Shown in pieces: positions 1,331 to 14,424 of a DNA stretch of 64,000 nt. A program made the position numbers and the translations under genes. The notes under the pieces are model-generated. The model worked only from the letters and a program-made list of their open reading frames with translations, searched no databases and was not told the origin of the DNA. How positions within the stretch are numbered: the first letter of the stretch is position 1; each line of letters starts with the position of its first letter. The stretch spans positions 248,001-312,000 of the forward strand of contig NZ_NFGZ01000001.1 of the NCBI RefSeq assembly GCF_002159175.1, given 5' to 3'. This stretch comes from Flavonifractor sp. An92 (GTDB lineage: Bacteria > Bacillota > Clostridia > Oscillospirales > Oscillospiraceae).

Positions 1331-2104
1331 TTGGATGGACTCTGGTTTCAGGTCCTGATCTGTTTTCTGGCTGGCGCGGGCGCCGGCCTGGGCACCGGTT
1401 TTGCCGGCATGAGCGCCGCTACGGTGATCAGCCCCATGCTCCTCACCTTTCTGGACGTGCCGGCCTATGACGCCATCGGCATCGCCCTGGCCAGCGACGT
1501 GCTGGCCAGCGCCGTCAGCGCCCGCACCTACGCCCGCATCGGTGCGCTGGACCTGAAGAACGGAATCGTCATGATGTGCGGCGTACTGAGCATGACGGTG
1601 GTGGGCAGCTGGCTCTCCTCCTTCCTGCCCAACCACGCGCTGGGCGGGATCTCGGTGGTCATGCCCTTCTTCCTGGGGCTGAAATTCCTGATCTTCCCCG
1701 TCACCAAGCCCCGGCCCGACCGCGGCGGGCCCGGCGGGAAGCTGGTCCGCGGCGCTCTGGGCGGAGCCGCCATCGGCCTGGTCTGCGGCTTCTTCGGCGC
1801 GGGCGGAGGGATGATGATGCTCCTGGTGCTGACCGTGTTCCTGGGCTACGAGCTCAAGACCGCCGTGGGCACCAGCGTGTTCGTGATGACCTTCTCCGCC
1901 CTCACCGGCGCGGTCAGCCATTTTGCCCTGGGCTCCGCGCCCCGGCTGGATCTGCTGGTCCTGTGCGTGATCTTTACCCTGGTCTGGGCCCAGCTGGCCG
2001 CCAAGGTGGCCGCCCGGTCCGACCCGCTGCTGCTCAACCGCCTGACCGGTGTGATCCTCGTGCTCTTGAGTACGGTCCTGGTGGCCGTGCATTTTGCCGC
2101 CTGA
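1331..2104 (+). CDS. TauE/SafE-family sulfur-anion exporter
   Basis: A 257-residue polytopic membrane protein of the TauE/SafE (DUF81) family, which exports sulfite, sulfoacetate and related anions across the cytoplasmic membrane. It shows the two-fold repeat typical of the family, with glycine-rich segments (AGAGLGTGFAGMSAA near the N-terminus, GFFGAGGGMM near the middle). The start is most likely TTG, eight bases after AGGAGG. The next gene, 30 bases downstream on the same strand, encodes an arylsulfate sulfotransferase, so a role with sulfate or sulfite is plausible, but the substrate is inferred from family and context only. Confidence 0.85.
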   Translation: MDGLWFQVLICFLAGAGAGLGTGFAGMSAATVISPMLLTFLDVPAYDAIGIALASDVLASAVSARTYARIGALDLKNGIVMMCGVLSMTVVGSWLSSFLPNHALGGISVVMPFFLGLKFLIFPVTKPRPDRGGPGGKLVRGALGGAAIGLVCGFFGAGGGMMMLLVLTVFLGYELKTAVGTSVFVMTFSALTGAVSHFALGSAPRLDLLVLCVIFTLVWAQLAAKVAARSDPLLLNRLTGVILVLLSTVLVAVHFAA

Positions 2105-2134
2105 TCCCAAATGCAGGATGTTAGGAGAATCGTT

Positions 2135-3904
2135 ATGGCCGTAAAGGAAAAGAAAAAACGCAAGTTTGTGGTGGCCGCCATCCTGGTGGCCGTGGTCCTC
2201 GCCGTCTCCATTCCGGTGGTAGTGTTCCTGGTGTCCAAGGCCTTCACCGCCCAGGAACAGGTGGTGCGCACCGACTGGGCCTTTGACACCGGCGACATCA
2301 TCGAGGAGAGCCAGGAATTCCAGGTGGACATCACCCAGGCCAACCTGGGCGAAGGCCTGTACGCCCTGCAGCTGGTGCCCCAGGACATCGGCGACGAGGG
2401 CTTCACCTACTATGACCTGGACGTGCAGCAGCGGCTGGAGGGCGTGGTGGAGCATCTGAAATCCTCCATCGGCGCCTCCTGGTCCGCCACCCTCCCTCTG
2501 GCTATTTTAAATCCATATGGCACCGGAAGCAATGGGCTTTACCTGTATTTTGACACCGAGCTCGCTACTTCCGTGAGCTACACCATCCACGTGGACCGGG
2601 AGGGCATCTCCGACTTCACCGCCCAGGCCGCCGACGCCTCCGGCGAGGTCTACACCAAGACCCACGAATTCCAGATGATCGGCCTGGTGCCCGGCGAGAC
2701 CAACCAGGTCACGCTGACCGTCACCGACCGCTTCGGCGTCGCCCGGCAGCGGGTGTCCTTCACGGTGGAGATGCCGGAGAACACGTCCGGTTACGACACC
2801 ACGCTGGAAGTCACCCAGGGCGACTCCCAGCAGGCCCAGGCTAATGGGCTGTTCACCCTCATGCGGGTCAACGGCTATCTGGGCTATGGCTTCTTCTACG
2901 ACAACGACGGCGTGCTGCGCTATGAGATGGTGCTGGAGGGCTACGGACTGGACCGCATCCTCTTCGACGGCGATGAGCTGATCACCTGCGTCTCCTCCTC
3001 CAAGCTGGGCCGCATCAACGGCCTGGGCCAGGTCACCCAGGTGATCGATCTGGAGGGCTACGACCTGCACCACGACATCGGCATGGGCGCCGACGGGGAG
3101 CTGCTGGCGCTGGCCGAGGTACGGGGCGGCGAGACGGTGGAGGACCGGCTGCTCTCCATCGATCTGGAGACCGGCGCGGTCACGGAACTGCTGGATTTCA
3201 GCCAGCTCCTGGAGCCCTACTTCTCCATGACCCGGCCGGTGGGCGTGTCGGACGACTTCTTCTGGCAGGCCGGCGAGTGGGACTGGATCCATCTCAACAG
3301 CCTGCAGTATATGCCGGAGGATGACAGCCTCATCGTCTCCTCCCGGGAGACCTCCACCATCCTCAAGGTCCGTGACCTCCACGGTCAGCCGGAGATCGAC
3401 TGGCTGGCCGGCGATGAGCGCTTCTGGGAGGACACCCCCTACGCCGACGCCTGCCTCACCCAGGAGGGCGATTTCGTGCCCCAGTACGGCCAGCACTGTG
3501 TGGAATTCTACGCCGACGGCGAGGAGGAGGGCGTCTACTACCTCTCCCTCTTCAACAACAACTACTGGTCCCTCAACAGCCGGGATTTTGAGCTGGAGGT
3601 GGCCGACTCGGTGGGCACCCAGCTCTACGGCTCCGGCGAAGAGGCCAGCCAGGTCTACATCTACCGTATCGATGAAAACGCCCGCACCTTCTCCCTGGAG
3701 GACAGCTTTGACGTGCCCTACTCCAGCATCGTCTCCAACGGCTCCCTGTGCGGGACGTCGGGGAACTGGGTGGTCAACAGCGGCGTGGCCATGGTGTTCG
3801 GCGAGTACGACGCCGACGGCGTCCTGATCCGGGAGTACAAATACGATTGCACCATGCAGAATTACCGCACCTTCAAGTACGACATGTCCCCCTGGTTCCG
3901 CTGA
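2135..3904 (+). CDS. Membrane-anchored arylsulfate sulfotransferase (ASST/AssT family)
   Basis: A 589-residue protein. The start is the ATG after TAGGAG, not an upstream ATG at 2111. An uncleaved-looking hydrophobic segment at about residues 11-33 after a Lys-rich start suggests an outward-facing anchored enzyme. AssT enzymes move sulfate from a phenolic sulfate ester to another phenol without PAPS, through a sulfo-histidine. Residues matching the E. coli AssT active site are visible: H312/H313 in DLHHDIG, H386 in IHLNSL, R404 in SSRETS (the same 18-residue spacing as H356-R374) and H454 in YGQHCVE. An ASST N-terminal domain (about 40-220) precedes the propeller. It follows a TauE/SafE gene and is followed by a strong terminator. 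Confidence 0.88.
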   Translation: MAVKEKKKRKFVVAAILVAVVLAVSIPVVVFLVSKAFTAQEQVVRTDWAFDTGDIIEESQEFQVDITQANLGEGLYALQLVPQDIGDEGFTYYDLDVQQRLEGVVEHLKSSIGASWSATLPLAILNPYGTGSNGLYLYFDTELATSVSYTIHVDREGISDFTAQAADASGEVYTKTHEFQMIGLVPGETNQVTLTVTDRFGVARQRVSFTVEMPENTSGYDTTLEVTQGDSQQAQANGLFTLMRVNGYLGYGFFYDNDGVLRYEMVLEGYGLDRILFDGDELITCVSSSKLGRINGLGQVTQVIDLEGYDLHHDIGMGADGELLALAEVRGGETVEDRLLSIDLETGAVTELLDFSQLLEPYFSMTRPVGVSDDFFWQAGEWDWIHLNSLQYMPEDDSLIVSSRETSTILKVRDLHGQPEIDWLAGDERFWEDTPYADACLTQEGDFVPQYGQHCVEFYADGEEEGVYYLSLFNNNYWSLNSRDFELEVADSVGTQLYGSGEEASQVYIYRIDENARTFSLEDSFDVPYSSIVSNGSLCGTSGNWVVNSGVAMVFGEYDADGVLIREYKYDCTMQNYRTFKYDMSPWFR

Positions 3905-3973: not shown

Positions 3974-4945
3974 TTAAGCCTGTCCGGGCTGCACCAGATG
4001 GCAGGCCACATAGTGGCCGGGGCGCACCTCCTGGAGGGGCGGCACGCTCTGGTGGCACTGCTCGCAGGCCACCGGGCAGCGGGTGCAGAAGGCGCAGCCC
4101 TTGGGCTTGTTGATGGGGCTGGGCACGTCGCCGGAGATGATCTGCCGGGTCTTTTGGGCCTCCTTGTCGGGGTCCGGGATGGGCACCGCCGACAAGAGCG
4201 CCTTGGAGTAGGGATGGAGGGTGTGGCTGTACAGCTCGTCGCTGCTGGCCAGCTCCACCACGCTGCCCAGATACATCACCGCGATGCGGTCGGAGATATA
4301 CTTGACAATATTCAGGTCGTGGGCGATGAACAGGTACGTCAGGCCCATCTCCTCCTGAAGGCGGCGCAGGAGGTTGATGACCTGGGCCTGGATGGACACG
4401 TCCAGCGCGGAAATGGGCTCGTCGCACACGATGAACTCAGGCTGGATGGCCAGAGCCCGGGCGATGCCGATGCGCTGGCGCTGGCCGCCGGAGAACTCGT
4501 GGGGGAAGCGGTTGGCGTGCTCCCGGTTCAGACCCACGATGTCCAGCAGGCGGGCCACCCGCTCCTGGCGCTCCTTGGCGTCGTACATCTTGTGGATGAC
4601 CATGCCCTCTTCAATGATGGAGCCGACGGTCATGCGGGAGTCCAGGGAGGCATAGGGGTCCTGGAACACGATCTGGGCCTTCTTGGCGAAGTGGAAGCGG
4701 TCCTTCTTGCTGTGGAGGTCCAGCTCCTTGCCGTCATAGATCAGCTTGCCCTTGGTGGGGCGGTAAATACCCATCATGGTGCGGCCCAGGGTGGACTTGC
4801 CGCAGCCGGACTCGCCCACCAGGCCCATGGTCTCGCCCCGGCGGATGTCCAGGGTCACGTTCTCCACGGCGTGCAGGGTGCGTCCGCCGCTGACTTTAAA
4901 ATACTTACACAGGCCTTCCGCCCGGATCAATACGTCATTGCTCAT
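3974..4945 (-). CDS. Peptide ABC transporter ATPase, OppF/DppF type
   Basis: A 323-residue nucleotide-binding subunit counted from the ATG at 4945 (a GTG three codons earlier is possible). It has Walker [10 protein letters not shown] near residues 44-52, signature LSGGQ-type [12 protein letters not shown], Walker B FIVCDEP, and a C-terminal Cys-rich oligopeptide-transporter extension ([15 protein letters not shown]) known from OppF/DppF. It powers uptake of peptides together with the OppD-type partner, whose stop it overlaps by 11 bases. It is the last gene of a five-gene operon. Confidence 0.93.
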
Positions 4946-5951
4946 CCTTCTCACCTCTCTCCTGGGCAGGGGGACAGTCGGGATGGAGCAGCCAGCAGCT
5001 GGCGCAGTGCCCCTCGCTCACCTGGAACTCGGGGGGCTGCTCCTCCAGACAGATCTGCATGCAGTGCTTGCAGCGGGCGGCGAAGGCGCAGCCCACCGGC
5101 GGATTGAGCAGATCGGGGGGAGTACCGGGGATGGCCGTGAGCGTCTCATCCTTGGTGGTCTCGGGGGAGGGCAGGCTCTTGAGCAGAGCCTGGGTATAGG
5201 GGTGGCTGTTGCGGTAGAAGATGTCCTGGACGGTGCCGGTCTCCACCACCTTGCCGGCGTACATCACCGCCACCCGATCGGCCACGCCGGCCACCACGCC
5301 CAGGTCATGGGTGATGAGGATGATGGCGGTGTTGATTTTCTCCTTCAGCTCCACCAGCAGGTCCATGATCTGGGCCTGGATGGTCACGTCCAGAGCGGTG
5401 GTGGGCTCGTCGGCGATGAGGAGCTTGGGGTCGCAGGACAGGGCCATGGCGATCATGGCGCGCTGGCGCATGCCGCCGGAGTACTCGTGGGGATACTGCT
5501 TGGCGCGCTCCTCGGGGTTGGGGATGTTGACCTGCTTGAGGCAGCGGATGGCCTCTTCCTTGGCCTCGGCCCGGGAGAGGTTCCGGTGGAGCTTGATGGC
5601 CTCCACGATCTGCTTGCCCACCTGGGTGGTGGGGTTCATACAGGTCATGGGGTCCTGGAAGATCATGGACACTTCCTTGCCCCGGATCTTCTGCATCTCC
5701 CGCTCGCTGGCCTTGACGATGTCATGGCCGGCCAGGTCGATGGCGCCCGACACGATGCGGGCGGGGGGCATGGGGTTGAGCTTCATGATGGTCTGGGCGG
5801 TGACCGACTTTCCGCAGCCGGATTCGCCCACAATGGCCAGCACTTCGCCCTCGTCCACATGGAGGGTCACGCCGCGGACGGCCTTGACCTCTCCGGCGTA
5901 GGTGTCGAAGGAGACGTGCAGGTCCTGGATATCAAGTACACGGTTGGCCAT
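4935..5951 (-). CDS. Peptide ABC transporter ATPase, OppD/DppD type
   Basis: A 338-residue ATPase with Walker A GESGCGKS (about 37-45), signature EYSGGMRQRA, Walker B LLIADEP and the switch His in ITHDLG. The C-terminal region has the Cys-containing oligopeptide-transporter domain (VGCAFAARCKHC). Pairs with the OppF-type subunit. The ATG follows GGAGGTGATCC. Six bases separate it from the permease gene upstream. Confidence 0.93.
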   Translation of the reverse strand: MANRVLDIQDLHVSFDTYAGEVKAVRGVTLHVDEGEVLAIVGESGCGKSVTAQTIMKLNPMPPARIVSGAIDLAGHDIVKASEREMQKIRGKEVSMIFQDPMTCMNPTTQVGKQIVEAIKLHRNLSRAEAKEEAIRCLKQVNIPNPEERAKQYPHEYSGGMRQRAMIAMALSCDPKLLIADEPTTALDVTIQAQIMDLLVELKEKINTAIILITHDLGVVAGVADRVAVMYAGKVVETGTVQDIFYRNSHPYTQALLKSLPSPETTKDETLTAIPGTPPDLLNPPVGCAFAARCKHCMQICLEEQPPEFQVSEGHCASCWLLHPDCPPAQERGEKDEQ

Positions 5952-5957
5952 TTGGGA

Positions 5958-6911
5958 TCACCTCCGGAGTTTGGGATCGAAGGCATCGCGCAGACCATCG
6001 CCGAACAGGTTGAAGGCCAGCATGGTCAGGCTGATGCAGACGGCAGGAATGATGAGCTGGGAGGGGTACAGGCGGAAATTCTGGATACCCAGCTGGGCCA
6101 GAGAGCCCCAGGAGCACAGAGGCGGGCGGATGCCCAGGCCCAGGTAGCTCAGATAGGCCTCGGAGAAGATGGCGGAGGGGATGGACAGGGTGACGCGCAC
6201 GATCATCACGGACAGGGTGTTGGGCAGCAGGTGCTTGGCGATCATCCGCCCGGTGCTGGCGCCCATGGCCTCAGCCGCCGCGATGAACTCCTGCTGCTTG
6301 AGGGCCACCACCTGGCCGCGGACCAGACGGGCCATGGGGATCCATCCCACCAGCGAGTAGGCCACGATGATGGTGATGATGCCGGGAGGCATGACCAGCA
6401 TGAGGAGAATGACGATCATCAGGTAGGGGATGCCGTTGATGATCTCCAGAATACGCATGAGGATGATGTCCAGCGTGCCGCCGAAGTAGCCCGAGATACC
6501 GCCGTAGATGGCGCCCAGGAAGAAGTCCACGATGGCGCTGGCGAAGGCGATGATGAGGGAGACCCGGCCGCCCATCCAGATGCGGGTGAAGATATCACGG
6601 CCCAGGGTGTCGGTGCCGAAGAGGTGCACATGGCCGTTTCCGGCGCTCTGGGCGTCGTTACAGACAGTGCCGATGGGGGCGTCGGTGTGGCCGTAGTGCT
6701 GCTCCTGATACTCAAAGGGAGAGAGGATGGGAGCGAAGATGGAGAAGACGAGCATGATGAACACAATCACCACGCACAGCATGGCTACCCGGTTGCTCAC
6801 CAGACGGCGCATAGCGTCCTGCAGGAAGGTGACGCTGGGGCGGCTGATGGCCTCGCGGTCATGGGCATTCTCACCCACATGGGCAAATCGTTCTTTTGCA
6901 ATGTGTGCCAT
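5958..6911 (-). CDS. Peptide ABC transporter permease, OppC/DppC type
   Basis: A 317-residue inner-membrane subunit. It has the N-terminal OppC segment with one hydrophobic helix (about 40-60), then the BPD_transp_1 domain with the EAA loop EFIAAAEAMGASTGRMIAKH, which contacts the ATPases. Three bases separate it from the OppB-type gene. The start follows GGAGGACTGATCG. Confidence 0.93.
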   Translation of the reverse strand: MAHIAKERFAHVGENAHDREAISRPSVTFLQDAMRRLVSNRVAMLCVVIVFIMLVFSIFAPILSPFEYQEQHYGHTDAPIGTVCNDAQSAGNGHVHLFGTDTLGRDIFTRIWMGGRVSLIIAFASAIVDFFLGAIYGGISGYFGGTLDIILMRILEIINGIPYLMIVILLMLVMPPGIITIIVAYSLVGWIPMARLVRGQVVALKQQEFIAAAEAMGASTGRMIAKHLLPNTLSVMIVRVTLSIPSAIFSEAYLSYLGLGIRPPLCSWGSLAQLGIQNFRLYPSQLIIPAVCISLTMLAFNLFGDGLRDAFDPKLRR

Positions 6912-6914
6912 CGA

Positions 6915-7835
6915 TCAGTCCTCCAGTTTGACGCGGGGGTCCACCACGCCGTAGAGCAGATCCACAACCAGCGTGCACAGGATCAGCAGCGCGCCGTAGA
7001 AGATCGTCGTACCGGAAATCATGGTAAAATCCTTATCCTTGATACTCGTAACAAAGTATTTGCCCAGACCGGGGATGTTGAAGATACTCTCCACCACGAA
7101 GGAGCCGGTGAACACGGCGGCCACGGTGGGGCCGATGATGGTGATGACCGGCATGATGGCGTTGCGCAGCGCGTGGCGCCAGAGGATCATGCTCTGGGAC
7201 AAACCTTTGGCTTTTGCCGTCTTGATATAGTCCTGGCTGAGCACGTCCAGCATGCTGGTGCGCATCAGTCGGGAGATGGTGGCCAGGGAGCTCATGCCCA
7301 GCGCGAAGGAGGGCAGCAGGGTCTGGGCAAAGGTGCCCCAACCCTGCACCGGCACCAGCCGGAGCTTCACGGCCAGGAAGTATTGGAGCAGTGCGCCCAG
7401 AATGAAGCTGGGCACCGACACGCCCACAATGGCGATGAACATGGACAGCGAGTCGGTAATGCTGCCGCGTTTCACGGCGGCCACCGCGCCCAGCAGGATA
7501 CCTGCGATCATGGCGAAGAGGATGGCCCGTGCTCCCAGGTCCATGGAGATGGGGAAGGAACTCAGAATGATCTCGTTGACCGAGCGGTTCTCGTAGCTGA
7601 TGGAGACGCCCAGGTCGCCCCGGACACAGTTGCCCAGGAAAATAAAGTACTGCACGATCGGGGGCTTATCCAGACCGTACTTGGCCTCCATATTGGCCAG
7701 GGTGGTGGGCGACGGAGTCTTGTCGCCGATAAAGGGATCGCCCGGAAGGGCGCGCATCATGAAAAAGGTCAGCGTAATGAGTACGAAAAGCGTCAGAATG
7801 CCGTAGGCAATACGCTTCAACACATAGCGCAGCAA
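6915..7835 (-). CDS. Peptide ABC transporter permease, OppB/DppB type
   Basis: A 306-residue permease with the usual N-terminal helix (about 9-30) and a six-helix BPD_transp_1 domain. The EAA loop reads YIKTAKAKGLSQSMILWRHA, and the C-terminus is YGVVDPRVKLED, a very common OppB ending. The start appears to be TTG, eight bases after GGAGGGAGATCC. It is separated from the binding-protein gene by 234 bases that hold strong hairpins. Confidence 0.93.
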   Translation of the reverse strand: MLRYVLKRIAYGILTLFVLITLTFFMMRALPGDPFIGDKTPSPTTLANMEAKYGLDKPPIVQYFIFLGNCVRGDLGVSISYENRSVNEIILSSFPISMDLGARAILFAMIAGILLGAVAAVKRGSITDSLSMFIAIVGVSVPSFILGALLQYFLAVKLRLVPVQGWGTFAQTLLPSFALGMSSLATISRLMRTSMLDVLSQDYIKTAKAKGLSQSMILWRHALRNAIMPVITIIGPTVAAVFTGSFVVESIFNIPGLGKYFVTSIKDKDFTMISGTTIFYGALLILCTLVVDLLYGVVDPRVKLED

Positions 7836-8069: not shown

Positions 8070-9836
8070 TTACTGAGCCAGGGTGGTGTAGATGAGGTTG
8101 TAGTACTGGAAGGGCAGACGGATCAGGCCGTCGGCCACCTTCTCGCTGACCACATAGTCCTCGTGACGCCAGTAGATGGGGATGAAGGGCATGTCCTCGG
8201 CCAGCATCAGCTCCGCCTGGACGAAGAGCTGCTCGCGGGCGGCGGGATCGCTCTCGGCCTTGGTGGACTCGATGAGGGCGTCGTACTCCTCGCTGGCGTA
8301 GCCGGTGTGGTTGTTGCCGTTGGTGCTGGTCCACAGGTCCAGGTCGCTCATGGGATCGTCATAGTCGGGGCCCCAGCCGCCCATGAACAGGTCGTAGTTC
8401 TTGGCGTTGCGGCGGGCGCGGGCCTCGGTGATGGTGACCACGTCGATGCCCACCTCGATGCCCAGGTTCTGCCGCAGCTGCTCCTGCACCACCTGGGAGA
8501 ACAGCTCATTCTGAGAGCCCTCGCTGGTCAGCAGGGAGATCTTGATCTGGCTGGCGTCGGTGTAGCCCAGGTCCTCCAGAGCGAGGGCCAGGTACTCCTT
8601 GGCCTTCTCCACGTCGGCGGTGGGGTTGTAGAGGGGCTGGCCGTTGTTGGCGGCCACCACGGCCTCACCGAAGGTCTCGGCGCTCACGCCGGAGATGCCC
8701 AGGGAGAAGGCGGGGGAGGGCTCGTTGTCGTTCTTAAAGACGGTGTCGATGATCTGCTGGCGGTCCACCGCGTAGCTGATGGCCTTGCGCAGGTTGATGC
8801 TGCGGGCGTCGGACAGCTTGGCGCCGGGGTAGTTGGCCAGATCTTCCTCCTGGATGTTGTTGCAGTAGAAGTAGAAGCTGTAGCCGGCGATCCAGTTGTT
8901 GACGGGATAGCCCTCAGCCTCGAACTGAGCGCGCTGCTCGCCGGTGATGTCGATGACGTCGATCTCGCCGGTCTGGAAGGCGTTGAGCTTGGTGTTGGAG
9001 TCGGTGTACTTGTCCCAGTAGATGGCCTTCAGGCTCACGTTGGAGGCGTCATACCACTCGTCGTTCTTCACGGTGGTGATGCTGTTCTCCAGGGTCCACT
9101 CGGTCATGCGGAAGGGACCGTTGTAGAGGAGCTTGTCGGGGGAGGTGCCGTAGTTCTCGGCGCCCACTTCCTCATAGAAGGGCTGGTAGATGGGGGTCAT
9201 GACCTCGAACTTGAGGTACTGCAGCAGGTAGGGCAGGGGATTCTCCAGCTCGATGACCAGGGTATAGTCGTCGGCGGCGTAGAAGCCCACCTGATCCAGG
9301 GTGACCTCGGGAGCGCCCTCCACGCCGGAGGCGTAGTCATAGTAGGCCTGGGCGTTCTTGAAGATGGTGGCGAAGGCATAGTACTCCGCAGCGTTGTTGG
9401 GGTTGAGCAGCTCGCTCCAGGCAAAGACAAAGTCATTGGCGGTCACGTCGCCCACAACCTCGCCCTGGCTGTTCACCCACTTGGCGCCCTCGCGCAGGTG
9501 GAAGGTCCAGATCATGTCCTCCACGCCCTCGGCGTTGGGAGCGGACTCCCAACTCTCAGCCGCGGCGCCGATGACCTGATTGTTCTCGTCCAGCTTCACC
9601 AGAGCGTCCCAGCAGTGCCGGGCCACGGCGAACTCGGTTGCATAAGTCATGAGGATGGGATTCATAACCGACATGGTGGAGCATTCCACGCGGATGGATC
9701 CCGCTTCGGAGGTGCCGGGATACATACCCTGGGCAGCGCCGCCGCCGCCCTCGCCGCCGCCGCCCCCGCCGGAGCAGCCGAACAGGGACAGCGCCAGCGT
9801 ACCGGCCAAAACAAGGGACAGAATTCGCTTTTTCAT
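8070..9836 (-). CDS. Peptide-binding lipoprotein, OppA/DppA type (SBP family 5)
   Basis: A 588-residue extracellular solute-binding protein. The start is the ATG at 9836, which follows AAGAAGGCG and gives a classic lipoprotein signal MKKRILSLVLAGTLALSLFGC with the lipobox LFGC at residues 18-21, followed by a poly-Gly/Glu linker. The body matches family 5 binding proteins, for example KGTIRVE-like SIRVECSTMSVMNPIL and the WTFHLREGAKWVNSQG segment conserved in OppA/DppA. It captures peptides for the permease and ATPase genes downstream. First gene of the operon. Confidence 0.94.
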   Translation of the reverse strand: MKKRILSLVLAGTLALSLFGCSGGGGGGEGGGGAAQGMYPGTSEAGSIRVECSTMSVMNPILMTYATEFAVARHCWDALVKLDENNQVIGAAAESWESAPNAEGVEDMIWTFHLREGAKWVNSQGEVVGDVTANDFVFAWSELLNPNNAAEYYAFATIFKNAQAYYDYASGVEGAPEVTLDQVGFYAADDYTLVIELENPLPYLLQYLKFEVMTPIYQPFYEEVGAENYGTSPDKLLYNGPFRMTEWTLENSITTVKNDEWYDASNVSLKAIYWDKYTDSNTKLNAFQTGEIDVIDITGEQRAQFEAEGYPVNNWIAGYSFYFYCNNIQEEDLANYPGAKLSDARSINLRKAISYAVDRQQIIDTVFKNDNEPSPAFSLGISGVSAETFGEAVVAANNGQPLYNPTADVEKAKEYLALALEDLGYTDASQIKISLLTSEGSQNELFSQVVQEQLRQNLGIEVGIDVVTITEARARRNAKNYDLFMGGWGPDYDDPMSDLDLWTSTNGNNHTGYASEEYDALIESTKAESDPAAREQLFVQAELMLAEDMPFIPIYWRHEDYVVSEKVADGLIRLPFQYYNLIYTTLAQ

Positions 9837-10182
9837 TGCTTCGCCTTCTTTCTTCAATCTTTGCAGTTGGATGTACATAAAACTAACTCTGCAGTCCACG
9901 CATCCCTTCCTTGTGTGTTCCGCAGAATTGTGTTAGAATTATGTGTAAATTGAGCATATCATAGAATCCAGCTATTTTGCAAGTGTATCTTCACTGGAAA
10001 TTCATTTTTGCCCCATTGTCTCTGTACCAGAGGCATTTGTTTTGGCAGCTCACAGAGCCTTCTTCCAGGTATCTATCTCCATTTTTCCCCACATCTATAC
10101 CCGTTCTGTTTTGACAATCGCGATTTCCACAAATGTTTGTTGTGGAAATTGAATAAATTTTTTCAGCTTCGCTCTGGAAAGG
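9837..10182. other. Divergent intergenic region, opp operon / sigma-like gene
   Basis: A 346-base AT-richer spacer without a gene. It holds the upstream region of the peptide-binding gene and of the sigma-like gene. A TTGACA hexamer lies at 10111-10116, and a 10-bp inverted repeat (ATTTCCACAA at 10123-10132, TTGTGGAAAT at 10140-10149, 7-base gap) lies directly after it. No convincing -10 hexamer follows at the usual spacing, so I mark this as a possible operator rather than a proven promoter. Confidence 0.4.
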
Positions 10183-10827
10183 ATGTTCAAGGATATGGCG
10201 CTCACCTGCCCTCAGTTCGACGATCTCTTTCAGTCCTGGTACGAGGACGTCTATCGCCTGTGTTTTTTGCTGGTTCCCAGCTCCCGCAATGCATATCATT
10301 GCACCTTTCATGTATTTCTGCGGCTGGGCGCGCGCACCGCTCCCCCGCTCTCACCAGAGGAGCTGCGGCGCTTTCTGGTCCGGCAGATCCTGGAGGTCTG
10401 CGGGGATTTTTACCTGCGCAAGCCCCATCGCCGCCCGGAGCGGGAGCAGCTTTCAAAATCCTTCCCCGGCCCTCTGGGCGACAGCCTCTGGGCGGTCTTT
10501 TCCCTTCCGCTGAAGGCGCGGGCCGCGTTTTACCTGCGGTACTGCATGGGACTTTCTGAGGCGGAATGTGCCGCATTGGTGGGCAAACAGGCCATTCGCG
10601 TCCCGGACCCGGCCTCTGCTGCCCAGGAATATGCCGTGGTTTCCCTGGGGGAGAACCAGGCCGCCGTCCTGCTGGACGAGGTCTATCTCCGCTTCCAGGA
10701 CCGGAGCGTGGGCCTGGAAAACCGCCTGCTGCACATCCGCTCCACCATGGACCGCCTGGCGCCCTGGCTGGCTCTGGGCGTGCTGCTGCTGTGCGCGGCG
10801 GCCGCCATCTACACTGCCAATCTCTAG
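10183..10827 (+). CDS. ECF-sigma-like protein with C-terminal membrane helix
   Basis: A 214-residue protein I can only place by similarity of layout. Residues about 10-50 (FDDLFQSWYEDVYRLCFLL, then HCTFHVFLRLG) resemble sigma region 2. Residues about 105-130 (LPLKARAAFYLRYCMGLSEAECAALVGK) resemble the first part of region 4. The expected recognition helix after that is not recognisable. A single hydrophobic helix at about 192-210 ends the protein. It may be a degenerate sigma factor turned membrane protein or a membrane-held regulator. The start could be ATG 10183 or ATG 10195. It stands alone, divergent from the peptide operon. Confidence 0.55.
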   Translation: MFKDMALTCPQFDDLFQSWYEDVYRLCFLLVPSSRNAYHCTFHVFLRLGARTAPPLSPEELRRFLVRQILEVCGDFYLRKPHRRPEREQLSKSFPGPLGDSLWAVFSLPLKARAAFYLRYCMGLSEAECAALVGKQAIRVPDPASAAQEYAVVSLGENQAAVLLDEVYLRFQDRSVGLENRLLHIRSTMDRLAPWLALGVLLLCAAAAIYTANL

Positions 10828-10897
10828 TCCGGATGGAAGCTCTGCATGAAATTGGAAGAAGAGGAGGAAGGACCGACCATCCGCGGTCTGCATAAAC

Positions 10898-11650
10898 ATG
10901 AATGAAATCTTGACGAGTCTCTGGAATCGGAAGTCGGTGCGGGCCTACCGGGAGGAGCCCATCCCCGACGAGCTGCGCAAACTCATCCTGGAGGCCGCCT
11001 GTCAGGCCCCCACCGCGGGCAACCAGCAGCTCTACACCATTCTGGACGTCACCGACCCCGCCCTGAAGGCCGCCCTGGCGGAGACCTGCGACCACCAGCC
11101 CTTTATCGCGGCTGCGCCCATGGTCCTGGTGTTCTGCGCCGACTGTAAGAAGTGGCACGACGCCTATCGGGAGGCCGGGTGCCAGCCCCGGCTGCCCGGT
11201 GTGGGCGACCTCATGCTGGCGGTGAGCGACGCGGTCATCGCCGCGCAGAACGCCGTGGTGGCCGCCGAGAGCCTGGGGATCGGCTCCTGCTACATCGGCG
11301 ATATTATGGAGAACTGCCAGGAGCAGCGCCGCCTGCTCCACCTGCCCGAGTATGTGTTCCCGGTGGCCATGCTGGTGCTGGGCTGGCCCACTCAGCAGCA
11401 GATGGAGCGCCCCAAGCCCCAGCGCTGCGCCCTGGAGCACATCGTCCACGAGAACCACTACCGCTCTATGGACGGCGCGGAGCTGCGGGACATGCTGGGC
11501 TACAAGGCCGGCCCGCGCACCTATGAGGACTGGTGTGCCGCGTTCTGCAATCGCAAGTACAACTCGGATTTCTCCCGGGAGATGACCCGGTCGGTCTCGG
11601 AATATCTGACCCAGTTCCAGTCGCCCTGCCAGGATTCCTCCCATCCATAA
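10898..11650 (+). CDS. Nitroreductase-family FMN oxidoreductase
   Basis: A 250-residue flavoprotein. SLWNRKSVRAYREEPIP at the N-terminus is the nitroreductase signature, with Arg residues that bind the FMN phosphate. APTAGNQQ (about 38-45) and AAESLGIGSCYIG (about 122-134) are the other FMN-pocket segments. The C-terminal extension (about 195-250) with several Cys and aromatic residues is typical of Clostridial members. It reduces nitro groups, quinones or similar substrates with NAD(P)H; the natural substrate is unknown. A 19-residue reading frame rich in Glu (10846-10905) overlaps the start and could couple translation, but this is uncertain. Confidence 0.88.
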   Translation: MNEILTSLWNRKSVRAYREEPIPDELRKLILEAACQAPTAGNQQLYTILDVTDPALKAALAETCDHQPFIAAAPMVLVFCADCKKWHDAYREAGCQPRLPGVGDLMLAVSDAVIAAQNAVVAAESLGIGSCYIGDIMENCQEQRRLLHLPEYVFPVAMLVLGWPTQQQMERPKPQRCALEHIVHENHYRSMDGAELRDMLGYKAGPRTYEDWCAAFCNRKYNSDFSREMTRSVSEYLTQFQSPCQDSSHP

Positions 11651-11662
11651 GCCCAAATCAAA

Positions 11663-11706
11663 AGCGGCAGCTCTGCCAGTTTCATGGCAGAGCTGCCGCT
11701 CTTTTC
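11663..11706. terminator. Bidirectional terminator between convergent genes
   Basis: A 16-bp perfect stem (11663-11678 with 11685-11700, 6-base loop) is followed by CTTTTCT on the forward strand and preceded by AAA on the other. It separates the nitroreductase gene from the converging Sel1-repeat gene. Confidence 0.88.
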
Positions 11707-11712
11707 TGCTTC

Positions 11713-12957
11713 TCAGCGCCGGACCCACTTGCCGCCGAAGAAGGTCTTTTTATAGTGTTTCAGCTCCTCCCGGGCCTCCGCAAGCTCTCCGGCCTTCTGG
11801 AGATAGTCCACGCCTTTGGCGATATCCTCCGGCACGCCCAGGCCGTTGCAGTACATCTTCCCCAGCAGGTAGAACCCCTGCGGACAGTTCCAGTCGATCT
11901 TCTCCAGGTACGCCCGTGCCGTCTCATAGTCCTGCCGGGTGCCCTGGCCGTTGGCGTAGCAGGCCCCCAGGTAGTAGAGCATAGCGGGGCTTCCGTTGTT
12001 CTCCGCCCATTTCAGCAGCTGGAAGGCCTTGGCGTAGTCCCGCTCCACGCCCCTGCCGTCGTAGTAAAACATCCCCAGTCGGTTGGCAGGGTTGCCCTTT
12101 TCGCGAATGGGCGCCTCCAGGGCCTGCTGGTAGTACCGGGCGGCCCGCTCCGGGTCCTTGGGAACTCCCTCGCCCAGCTCATAGGAGTACCCCGCCCAGA
12201 AGAAAGCCCGGGGCTCCCCGCCCTCCGCGGCGCTGCGATAGTAGGAAAAGGCCTCTGCCTTCTCCCCCTTTCCGTAGAGGTCGTTGGCGTAGTAAAACTG
12301 GCTGTCCGGATAGCCCTTTTCCGCCCCGTAGCGGTACACCTCCGCCTCCTTCTCCGGCCGGGGCGAGATCAGCCCCTTCTCCCCTTCCCAGTAAAACCAG
12401 GCCAGATTGAGGCCTCCCGCGGAGATGCCGCTGCGGATGGCCCGCCAAAGCCAGTCCTCACAGCGGGAGATATTCTCCCGGGCGTAGCTCAGGAAAGCGT
12501 CGTCGCTGTCGAAGCTCTTCTGGTCCTTCTTCTGGATGCGGAAAAAGTCCCCCCAGTAGTAGACGTTTCCAATCACCATCTGGCAGAAGGGCTCGCCGCG
12601 CTCAGCCTTGGCCAGGATCTGATCGAAGGCCTTCTGAAGCGTCTGGGGCATGCTCTGTTCCAGCTGCTGGTCCATCACACCGCAGCGCAGGGCGATCAGT
12701 GCCCCCAGGGCGCTGCCGCCCAGCACCGACTGACGCATCAGGTCGTCGCCCCGCCTCTCGTCCTCGGGAAAATCGTGTCCCGGCCAGGTGTACTCCGGGC
12801 CGTACAGACACCGGGCCAGCAGGCACTTGGCATCCGCGTCTCCGGCGGCCGCGGCCTCCTCCAGCAGCTGAAAGCCCTCCCGGCCCCGTCGTGCCTTCAG
12901 ATCATAATAAATGTACTGCAAGGCCCGCTCCACCGCGTCGCTGAAAAACTGTCCCAT
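11713..12957 (-). CDS. Sel1-repeat (TPR-like) protein
   Basis: A 414-residue soluble protein built of Sel1-like repeats: SAAEGGEPRAFFWAGYSYELGEGVPKD-type units repeat about every 36 residues, for example AMLYYLGACYANGQGTRQDYETA and FYLLGKMYCNGLGVPEDIAKG. Sel1 repeats form alpha-solenoids that mediate protein-protein contacts. No catalytic domain or signal peptide is visible. It lies 12 bases downstream of a membrane-protein gene on the same strand and is probably co-transcribed with it. Confidence 0.82.
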   Translation of the reverse strand: MGQFFSDAVERALQYIYYDLKARRGREGFQLLEEAAAAGDADAKCLLARCLYGPEYTWPGHDFPEDERRGDDLMRQSVLGGSALGALIALRCGVMDQQLEQSMPQTLQKAFDQILAKAERGEPFCQMVIGNVYYWGDFFRIQKKDQKSFDSDDAFLSYARENISRCEDWLWRAIRSGISAGGLNLAWFYWEGEKGLISPRPEKEAEVYRYGAEKGYPDSQFYYANDLYGKGEKAEAFSYYRSAAEGGEPRAFFWAGYSYELGEGVPKDPERAARYYQQALEAPIREKGNPANRLGMFYYDGRGVERDYAKAFQLLKWAENNGSPAMLYYLGACYANGQGTRQDYETARAYLEKIDWNCPQGFYLLGKMYCNGLGVPEDIAKGVDYLQKAGELAEAREELKHYKKTFFGGKWVRR

Positions 12958-12969
12958 ATCCCGGCCTCC

Positions 12970-14280
12970 TCATCCGTCCGCTCGTTCCCGTTCTTCCGGT
13001 GCTGGCTGCCAGGTCCGGCCGGCGCGCTCCATGCGCGTCCAGTCCTTCAGGGATGGGATCTCCCCCCGCAGCCACCCCCGCAGCACCCGCTCCGCCTCAC
13101 CGAACGTGACGTCCCGCGTCCAGGCGTACCGGCCGGGCTCCCGCGGAGAACCGGAGTCCTCCTCCAGCAAGATGCGCGTGAGCCCCTGTGCGCCGCCGGG
13201 AAGGCACACCAGGCGGCTGAAGGGCCGCCCCTCTCCCTGGAAGGGGATGCCGGGCACCATCTGCAAGGGGCCGCTCTCCCCCGTCCGGCTGGGCCGGAGC
13301 AGCCATTCCCGCAAGGTGTCCCAGGTGATGCGGGAGGTCACCGAGCCGTCGGGCAGGGTGAGCACCTGATTCTGGGCCAGACGGTCCTCTTCTTCCCGGG
13401 TCTGCTCCTCCACCCGGGCCTTTCTCTGGCGGTATTCCCGCTCCAGGCGATACCACTGCTCCTCGTCGGCGTGGAGCAGATCCCGGTACTCCTTGGAGTC
13501 GTATTTCCCAAAGACGGCGGCGGGGACCCGCTTGCGCAGGCACTCCACGGCCTCCTCCACCTCTTTCTTGGAGCGCAGAGTAGTGCTCTGCTGCTGCTGG
13601 CGGTCGTCGATGATCCAGAGCTCATAGAGGTAGGTCACCCGGGTCCGCTCGCCGCTGTGGGACGTCCGGCGCTCCACCCGGTCAAAGACGCCCCGGATGC
13701 GGGAGAGGGCGGAGGCCTCGTCCCCCAGCACCCACTCCTTGCCGACGCCCAGCCGGCCGATCCACTGGCCATTCTCCTTTAAGTCCCGGTCCACCATGGC
13801 GAAGAGTTCCTTCACCGGGGGCGCCTCGTCCGGGTAGGGCAGCTGGCTGCGGATGGACTGGGCCAGGGCACTTTTCTCCGGGTACAGGGCGTCCCTCAGG
13901 CTCAGGAAGGCCCACACAAGGCCAATAAAAGCCGCGATCGCGCCCAAAAACGGACTGAATCGATACGCGAGGAGGCTCTCCTCATCCAGGCGGGCCACCT
14001 CTTCCGGAAGGGCGCGCCCCATGAAAAAGAAGCCCAGAAGCAGCGCGCCCACCAGGAGAAAGATCCCCGCCGGGATCAGTCCACGCAGTTGTCCCCGGGT
14101 GCGCTGGAGGCAATAGCCCTCCTCCGGGCCGTCGGGCTGCTGCTTCTTGTTCCACCACATGATCAAGAGGATAAACGGGATGGAAAAGAGGCGGAGCACC
14201 ACCACCAAGGCGACATAAACCACCACATTCCAGGGCCATCTGAGATAAAAACGCTTCTTTTGCACATCGTTTGTCTGCAT
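12970..14280 (-). CDS. Large membrane protein of unknown function
   Basis: A 436-residue protein starting at the ATG at 14280, which has GGGAAGGG five bases upstream; an upstream TTG is less likely. Three hydrophobic segments lie in the first 130 residues (about 16-40, 70-90 and 112-130), followed by a long cytoplasmic-looking part with a charged coiled-coil stretch near 285-315 (REYRQRKARVEEQTREEEDR). No conserved enzymatic motif is seen. It probably forms an operon with the Sel1-repeat gene, which may encode a partner. Function not recognised. Confidence 0.7.
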   Translation of the reverse strand: MQTNDVQKKRFYLRWPWNVVVYVALVVVLRLFSIPFILLIMWWNKKQQPDGPEEGYCLQRTRGQLRGLIPAGIFLLVGALLLGFFFMGRALPEEVARLDEESLLAYRFSPFLGAIAAFIGLVWAFLSLRDALYPEKSALAQSIRSQLPYPDEAPPVKELFAMVDRDLKENGQWIGRLGVGKEWVLGDEASALSRIRGVFDRVERRTSHSGERTRVTYLYELWIIDDRQQQQSTTLRSKKEVEEAVECLRKRVPAAVFGKYDSKEYRDLLHADEEQWYRLEREYRQRKARVEEQTREEEDRLAQNQVLTLPDGSVTSRITWDTLREWLLRPSRTGESGPLQMVPGIPFQGEGRPFSRLVCLPGGAQGLTRILLEEDSGSPREPGRYAWTRDVTFGEAERVLRGWLRGEIPSLKDWTRMERAGRTWQPAPEERERADG

Positions 14281-14424
14281 AGGATCCCTTCCCAACTCGT
14301 CACGCGATATGGCCTTTGTTCTTATGCTATTCTAGCACAATTTCGTGGAACGGAACAGTGCTTCCCCTCTTGCTACATTTAAAAGGAAAAAGCGCGCAGA
14401 CAGGAAAGACAGCGCCTCCCCTCC

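Follow-up and report, generated by a model that had tools for sequence, protein, structure and literature searches.

Several groups of ECF sigma factors carry a C-terminal membrane extension – IutY/ECF243, ECF48, ECF52 and ECF53 – and ECF36, ECF115 and ECF270 are likewise placed under proteolytic regulation (PMC8999054). The membrane-extended ECFs are thought to be working sigma factors freed by proteolysis, and ECF48, ECF52 and ECF53 are described with a zinc-finger anti-sigma and extensions of up to 400 residues (PMC8999054). Sigma mimicry is known from PhyR, whose sigma-like domain shows degenerated promoter and polymerase contacts and titrates NepR (PMC8103513). Clostridia also possess ECF sigma factors paired with membrane anti-sigma factors, as two genes with intact sigma motifs.

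Here we describe sigma-TM, a membrane-anchored sigma-like protein that is akin to the known membrane-fused ECFs and to PhyR-type mimicry, encoded in a stretch of 64,000 nucleotides from Flavonifractor sp. An92 that was analysed as a whole and is called the window below. Among the open-access titles and abstract openings listed – a set outside which most subscription journals lie – there is no report of a membrane-tethered degenerate sigma factor or of one linked to an opp operon. As in the membrane-fused ECFs, ECF sigma domains are followed by a C-terminal membrane part, but in sigma-TM ECF residues are lost and the tail measures about 60 residues; HxxxCxxC, the motif of a zinc-finger anti-sigma, occurs in none of the seven members found. 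With PhyR the protein shares a sigma fold whose polymerase and promoter residues are lost, yet in place of PhyR's receiver domain and its titration of NepR, sigma-TM has a membrane anchor and an opp operon, and Pfam gives no match to the receiver domain (Response_reg) in it. The ECFs of the Clostridia pairs are the closest sequence relatives of residues ~11-140, and the start of their membrane anti-sigma factors is weakly like the sigma-TM tail; in contrast to the two genes of such a pair, however, sigma-TM is a single, degenerate protein that carries a membrane helix of its own. Its parts are these:

10183..10827, plus strand: sigma-TM, membrane-anchored sigma-like protein, 214 aa (homology, codon constraint)
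10216..10437, plus strand: region 2-like part, residues 12-85 (D36, Q42, W64 and N71 replaced in 7/7 members)
10492..10584, plus strand: region 4.1-like part, residues 104-134 (Pfam, ECF alignment, predicted structure)
10585..10632, plus strand: residues 135-150, where the recognition helix has been lost (lowest conservation)
10657..10755, plus strand: juxtamembrane tail, residues 159-191 (52-73% identity in three pairs)
10756..10812, plus strand: single C-terminal membrane helix, residues 192-210 (hydrophobicity, charge, predicted structure)

Six further full-length homologues, with both sigma part and tail, were found. G091 (58% identity) and G294 (35%) are the full-length members among 400 family genomes, with up to seven candidates scored per genome; G837, G845 and G840 were found among 18 genomes of G294's genus; and G682, which belongs to another family, was found among 394 order genomes and is the sole full-length member among 100 genomes of its family. 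No full-length match appeared in nine congeners of the window genome or among 245 class genomes, and none at all in a plasmid collection or among viral contigs, while a genome-contig collection returned nothing for a single-sequence query and two loci for query A2. The accessions CASFCS010000029.1 and SVMM01000003.1 (Oscillospiraceae bacterium SIG513) likewise represent G091 and G294. In a tree of the sigma part, in which they were compared with 40 ECF rows drawn from 81 ECF homologues (two rows being identical), the seven members form one group with support 98/99, set off by a long branch; the placement of G682 is less sure, as it is itself a long branch.

The frame at 10183-10827 (+) is a genuine protein-coding ORF. 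It is open in all seven members, and in the pairs formed by the window, G091 and G294 third codon positions are the least conserved, with NG86 dN/dS values of 0.40 (0.35/0.88) for window/G091, 0.52 (0.74/1.43) for window/G294 and 0.43 (0.73/1.70) for G091/G294; with silent rates this close to saturation, we read these ratios as below one. Met5 is matched by methionine in all seven aligned rows, several of which begin at this column, so that translation may really start at 10195. A 508-aa antisense ORF (10202-11728, minus strand) was set aside as a presumed by-product of G+C-rich coding sequence. In the leader, immediately before the start, a 12-pair hairpin is followed by AATAAATTTT (window 10121-10151, +), a possible attenuator.

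Over residues ~11-140 the protein can be aligned with ordinary ECF sigma factors from related genomes (best ordinary match E 7.6e-15), matches at E<=1e-3 occur in 79 of 200 family genomes, and a profile from three homologues reaches ECF SigE chains in the PDB (E 1.3e-6); by homology, regions 2 and 4 of an ECF sigma factor can both be recognised. Every Pfam and NCBIfam sigma match lies under its cut-off: region 2 has family-model matches at this level only, together with weak NCBIfam sigma models, and Pfam Sigma70_r4_2 (E 4.1e-4, 20.4 bits against a cut-off of 25.7 bits) covers residues 107-134, corresponding to profile positions 10-37 of 54, and thus falls short of the recognition helix. The preliminary description had proposed region 2-like and early region 4-like segments followed by loss of that helix: the ECF alignment and sub-threshold profiles bear out the former, and the end of the Pfam match at 37/54, where identity is also lowest, bears out the latter. 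For window/G091, window/G294 and G091/G294, respectively, identity is 0.53, 0.31 and 0.26 in region 2, 0.58, 0.32 and 0.42 in region 4.1, and 0.31, 0.07 and 0.25 in the recognition-helix segment (135-158), the least conserved part. Best conserved in these three pairs are the juxtamembrane tail (0.73, 0.52, 0.52) and the membrane helix with the protein's end (0.70, 0.65, 0.52). A frameshift was rejected as the explanation for the missing helix, because each of the six homologues (G091, G294, G837, G845, G840 and G682) runs uninterrupted in a single frame through the same place.

Structure prediction, which might have returned no such fold, gave a sigma-like model (pLDDT 78, pTM 0.70, built on a three-row alignment) with the region 2 and region 4.1 helices, a short helix at the recognition-helix position and one long helix over residues 159-213 that includes the membrane segment. 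Foldseek ranks sigma factors first, with probability 1.00 for the top five rows, and no row reaches E<=1e-3. In VIA-align the best row is RpoE/NepR (Z 11.0, rmsd 3.6, 138 aligned), and further rows include SigG1 (Z 10.2), SigW/RsiW (9.8), CnrH/CnrY (8.8), PhyR (8.3, and below for further chains; rmsd 4.3, 111 aligned) and SigJ (6.9), with a cyclin (Z 5.2) as the first clearly unrelated row. Rows at Z>=6.9 that span both sigma domains are anti-sigma-bound ECFs, self-contained ECFs (SigG1, SigJ) and PhyR, while RNAP-bound ECFs, and likewise AlgU/MucA and sigmaE/RseA, align mainly over the region-2 part. As a Z below ~13 may reflect just an arrangement common among helical proteins, the claim of a sigma fold rests on the sequence evidence.

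What the protein has lost was gauged against 77 distinct ECF homologues, in which 43 columns are conserved at >=70% and which themselves, by construction, retain 28-41 of them. The window protein retains 22, G091 19, G294 20, G837 20, G845 17, G840 20 and G682 13. Replaced in all seven members are D36 (91% in ECFs), Q42 (92%), W64 (99%), N71 (96%), Y121 (81%), E122 (92%) and R148 (95%), along with five less conserved ECF positions. The D-x-E-D..Q motif of region 2.2, the docking site on RNA polymerase, is absent, D36/E38/D39/Q42 being N, Y, H and F in the window protein. The residues for recognition of the -10 element, mapped by inference to the W64 and N71 columns, are replaced in 7/7, and the window protein lacks the recognition helix of region 4.2. 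In M. tuberculosis, the sigma-L residue that stacks on the '-11' base is Trp68 (PMC6372665); from its place after loop L3, this Trp68 should correspond to the W64 column. Loss is graded, in that E38 (84% in ECFs) is retained in four of the seven, D39 (100% in ECFs) in G837 only and Y120 in the window protein only, which implies that some RNA polymerase binding may remain; G091 keeps the region-4 length with a Pfam match to profile position 41, and G682 has a match to position 52 (of 54). The earlier suggestion of a degenerate sigma factor thus gains support from the sigma homology, the predicted fold and the functional residues lost throughout.

A working membrane-fused ECF of the IutY or ECF52 kind, held by its tail and freed by proteolysis to transcribe opp or its own gene, is in our judgement quite unlikely: it would have the same gross plan, sigma domains with a membrane helix C-terminal to them, and would fit the retention of E38 in some members, but the seven residues named above are replaced in every one of them and conservation is lowest in the recognition-helix segment.

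The C-terminal membrane helix predicted earlier was recovered as a single one, at residues 192-210 (Kyte-Doolittle 2.14). The most hydrophobic 19-residue stretch falls there in all seven members (1.84-2.38, G682 being scored on its first 225 residues), although 1-24% of shuffled sequences reach this hydrophobicity, which is therefore not decisive alone. There are 3-6 K/R in the 15 residues before the helix and 0-1 after it in the seven members; by charge, the N-terminus is inside. None of the 77 distinct ECFs has a helix-like hydrophobic stretch (Kyte-Doolittle >=1.6), and all end soon after region 4. The G682 homologue (L084:7320-8510, minus strand) has ~180 extra residues after the membrane helix, presumably extracellular, in which Pfam finds no match. 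An extracytoplasmic domain is confined to this one member of the seven, and its absence from the others counts further against a protein of the IutY or ECF52 kind.

Between the sigma part and the helix there is no match to a Pfam anti-sigma domain, and an HMM of the tail gave no match under E 0.35 at 108 ECF loci, some of them overlapping. HHalign of the tail with four anti-sigma N-termini, which had been selected as top matches, reached a probability of 25% and a score of 24.0, whereas none of 150 within-segment shuffles exceeded 19.5. In an unpicked set, 82 putative anti-sigmas – ORFs directly downstream of ECFs – scored a median of -0.7 bits against -3.3 for 123 control membrane ORFs (p 1e-15), and 63 of the 82 beat the mean of their own segment shuffles (p 7e-8), with a top shuffled score of 13.1 bits over a top real score of 8.2. 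Since chance frames occur among the controls, the sequences share ancestry and some individual shuffles exceed the best real score, we regard the weak resemblance as suggestive. It is what a protein released by proteolysis might show, and it hints at a decayed fusion of a sigma factor with the N-terminus and membrane helix of its anti-sigma. The statement that sigma-TM has no clear anti-sigma partner accordingly holds for the adjacent genes, no anti-sigma gene being seen beside it in the window, but has to be qualified for its own tail.

The main context of the gene, absent from the preliminary description, is a divergent operon for peptide import:

8070..9899, minus strand: oppA, peptide-binding lipoprotein (PF00496, E 1.1e-65; likely start 9836, by eye)
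6915..7835, minus strand: oppB, permease
5958..6911, minus strand: oppC, permease (named by eye and operon position)
4935..5951, minus strand: oppD, ATPase
3974..4954, minus strand: oppF, ATPase
10898..11650, plus strand: nitroreductase-family gene (near opp/sigma-TM in 4/7 loci)
9911..9939, plus strand: promoter-like site towards sigma-TM (TTGTGT and TAGAAT, spaced by 17 nt, with TGn ahead of the latter)
9953..9982, minus strand: promoter-like site towards oppA (TTGCAA, 18 nt, TATGCT), facing the sigma-TM site

In the window, sigma-TM stands back to back with oppA, followed on the oppA strand by oppB, C, D and F, and it is divergent from this one particular opp operon in six of seven loci across two families. 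The divergent oppA adjoins it in five (window, G091, G294, G845 and G837, whose contig ends inside oppA), while in G682 one gene, YihY-like by eye, lies between them; identities there are 36% for oppA, 62% for oppB, 59% for oppC, 77% for oppD and 78% for oppF. The exception is G840, a 68%-complete genome with no oppA on the 5.4-kb contig and OppB at most 30%; the tail of its sigma-TM copy (L144:1790-2458, minus strand) departs from the shared motif. Among the 400 family genomes, with up to three candidates scored per genome, OppA of >=66% identity occurs only in G000, G091 and G294 – the three with full-length sigma-TM, G294 giving 60% over a longer alignment – and the next OppA scores 253 bits against 801, other matches having <=35% identity. 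OppB is 63-100% identical in six of the seven sigma-TM genomes and at best 32-49% in 11 chosen genomes without sigma-TM, and no sigma-TM was found at 31 loci of other opp clades, most with 1.5-kb flanks. The linkage could be joint inheritance of one locus.

The nitroreductase gene belongs to the cluster at four loci (window, G091, G294 and G845) and is not seen in G682; the contigs of G837 and G840 are short. In G091 a gene that is PucR-like by eye (L050:7456-8727, minus strand) lies between sigma-TM and the nitroreductase gene, with no match in the five other loci compared. Farther out in the window are a TauE/SafE exporter gene with an arylsulfotransferase (ASST) gene (1331-3904, plus strand), convergent with the end of the opp operon, and a 441-aa protein (12970-14295, minus strand), membrane-like by eye and without a Pfam match, that adjoins a Sel1-repeat protein (11713-12957). 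Defence models gave no match.

Since the known relatives lie nearly always back to back with the same peptide-import operon, sigma-TM is probably a repurposed regulator or helper of the peptide transporter. As a helper, it might be an Opp accessory subunit whose membrane helix packs on OppB/OppC and whose sigma fold is a scaffold with no transcription role. The tie to one specific opp operon in two families and the high conservation of membrane helix and juxtamembrane segment would suit such a subunit, but the gene is divergent, with its own promoter-like site outside the opp operon, and we consider this unlikely.

The two promoter-like sites recur in the intergenic regions of the window, G091, G294, G837 and G845: all five have TTG-(17)-TGnTAnnAT towards sigma-TM and TTGCAn, then TAnnnT 16-18 nt on, towards oppA, and in all five the sites face each other. 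Chance values per locus are 0.0017-0.0087 for the former and 0.008-0.026 for the latter pattern, and are not clean tests, as both were picked after the alignment had been inspected; a general sigma-70 scan of window 9850-10950 found no sites. Both appear to resemble housekeeping (sigma-A) promoters, and, facing each other, transcription from one may interfere with that from the other. That the sites picked out in the alignment are housekeeping-like at five of five loci would again count against a sigma factor that transcribes opp or itself. The promoter-like plan shared by these five loci also speaks against sigma-TM being a functionless, decaying relic. Key residues are indeed lost, the G840 copy lies away from opp and nine congeners have no full-length match; yet dN/dS is 0.40-0.52, the tail is 52-73% identical between genera and the frame is open throughout, which leaves a relic very improbable.

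PhyR offers the precedent of an ECF fold with degenerated promoter and RNAP contacts (PMC8103513), and its chains are among the VIA-align matches. By analogy, sigma-TM could be a membrane-held decoy that titrates an anti-sigma encoded elsewhere and so frees another ECF; a decoy was the second suggestion of the preliminary description. Suitable targets likely exist, given 26 region-2 matches in its own genome and a membrane ORF directly downstream at 89 of 98 ECF loci of related genomes, but the lack of an anti-sigma gene beside sigma-TM speaks against such a decoy, to which we assign a low probability.

The reading we prefer, at somewhat short of even odds, is that sigma-TM mimics a sigma factor without being able to drive transcription: tethered to the membrane and dedicated to Opp, it would use the old fold as a binding surface. 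Its ancestor would be an ECF sigma factor, which may have been joined to the N-terminus of the cognate membrane anti-sigma, and the ability to direct RNA polymerase would have been lost. Tail and helix would fix a compact domain of sigma shape to the inner membrane face, where it may bind an anti-sigma or a subunit of the divergent Opp transporter – or, as another candidate partner, its own tail in cis – and such binding might link the uptake of peptides to regulation, either of the divergent opp promoter or of the transporter. A bolder extension, which we put forward as a possibility of limited likelihood, would make these proteins a new class of receptor-like membrane protein, built from an ECF and the membrane anchor of its anti-sigma, without a role in transcription and with Opp as dedicated partner, in which the sigma fold senses or signals transport; in G682 the added extracytoplasmic domain would then complete a transmembrane sensor.

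Sigma factors are usually thought of as polymerase subunits. If the preferred reading is true, a sigma fold would have been exapted for signalling at the membrane, sigma mimicry would have a second setting besides PhyR, and Opp-linked regulation in Clostridia would become testable.
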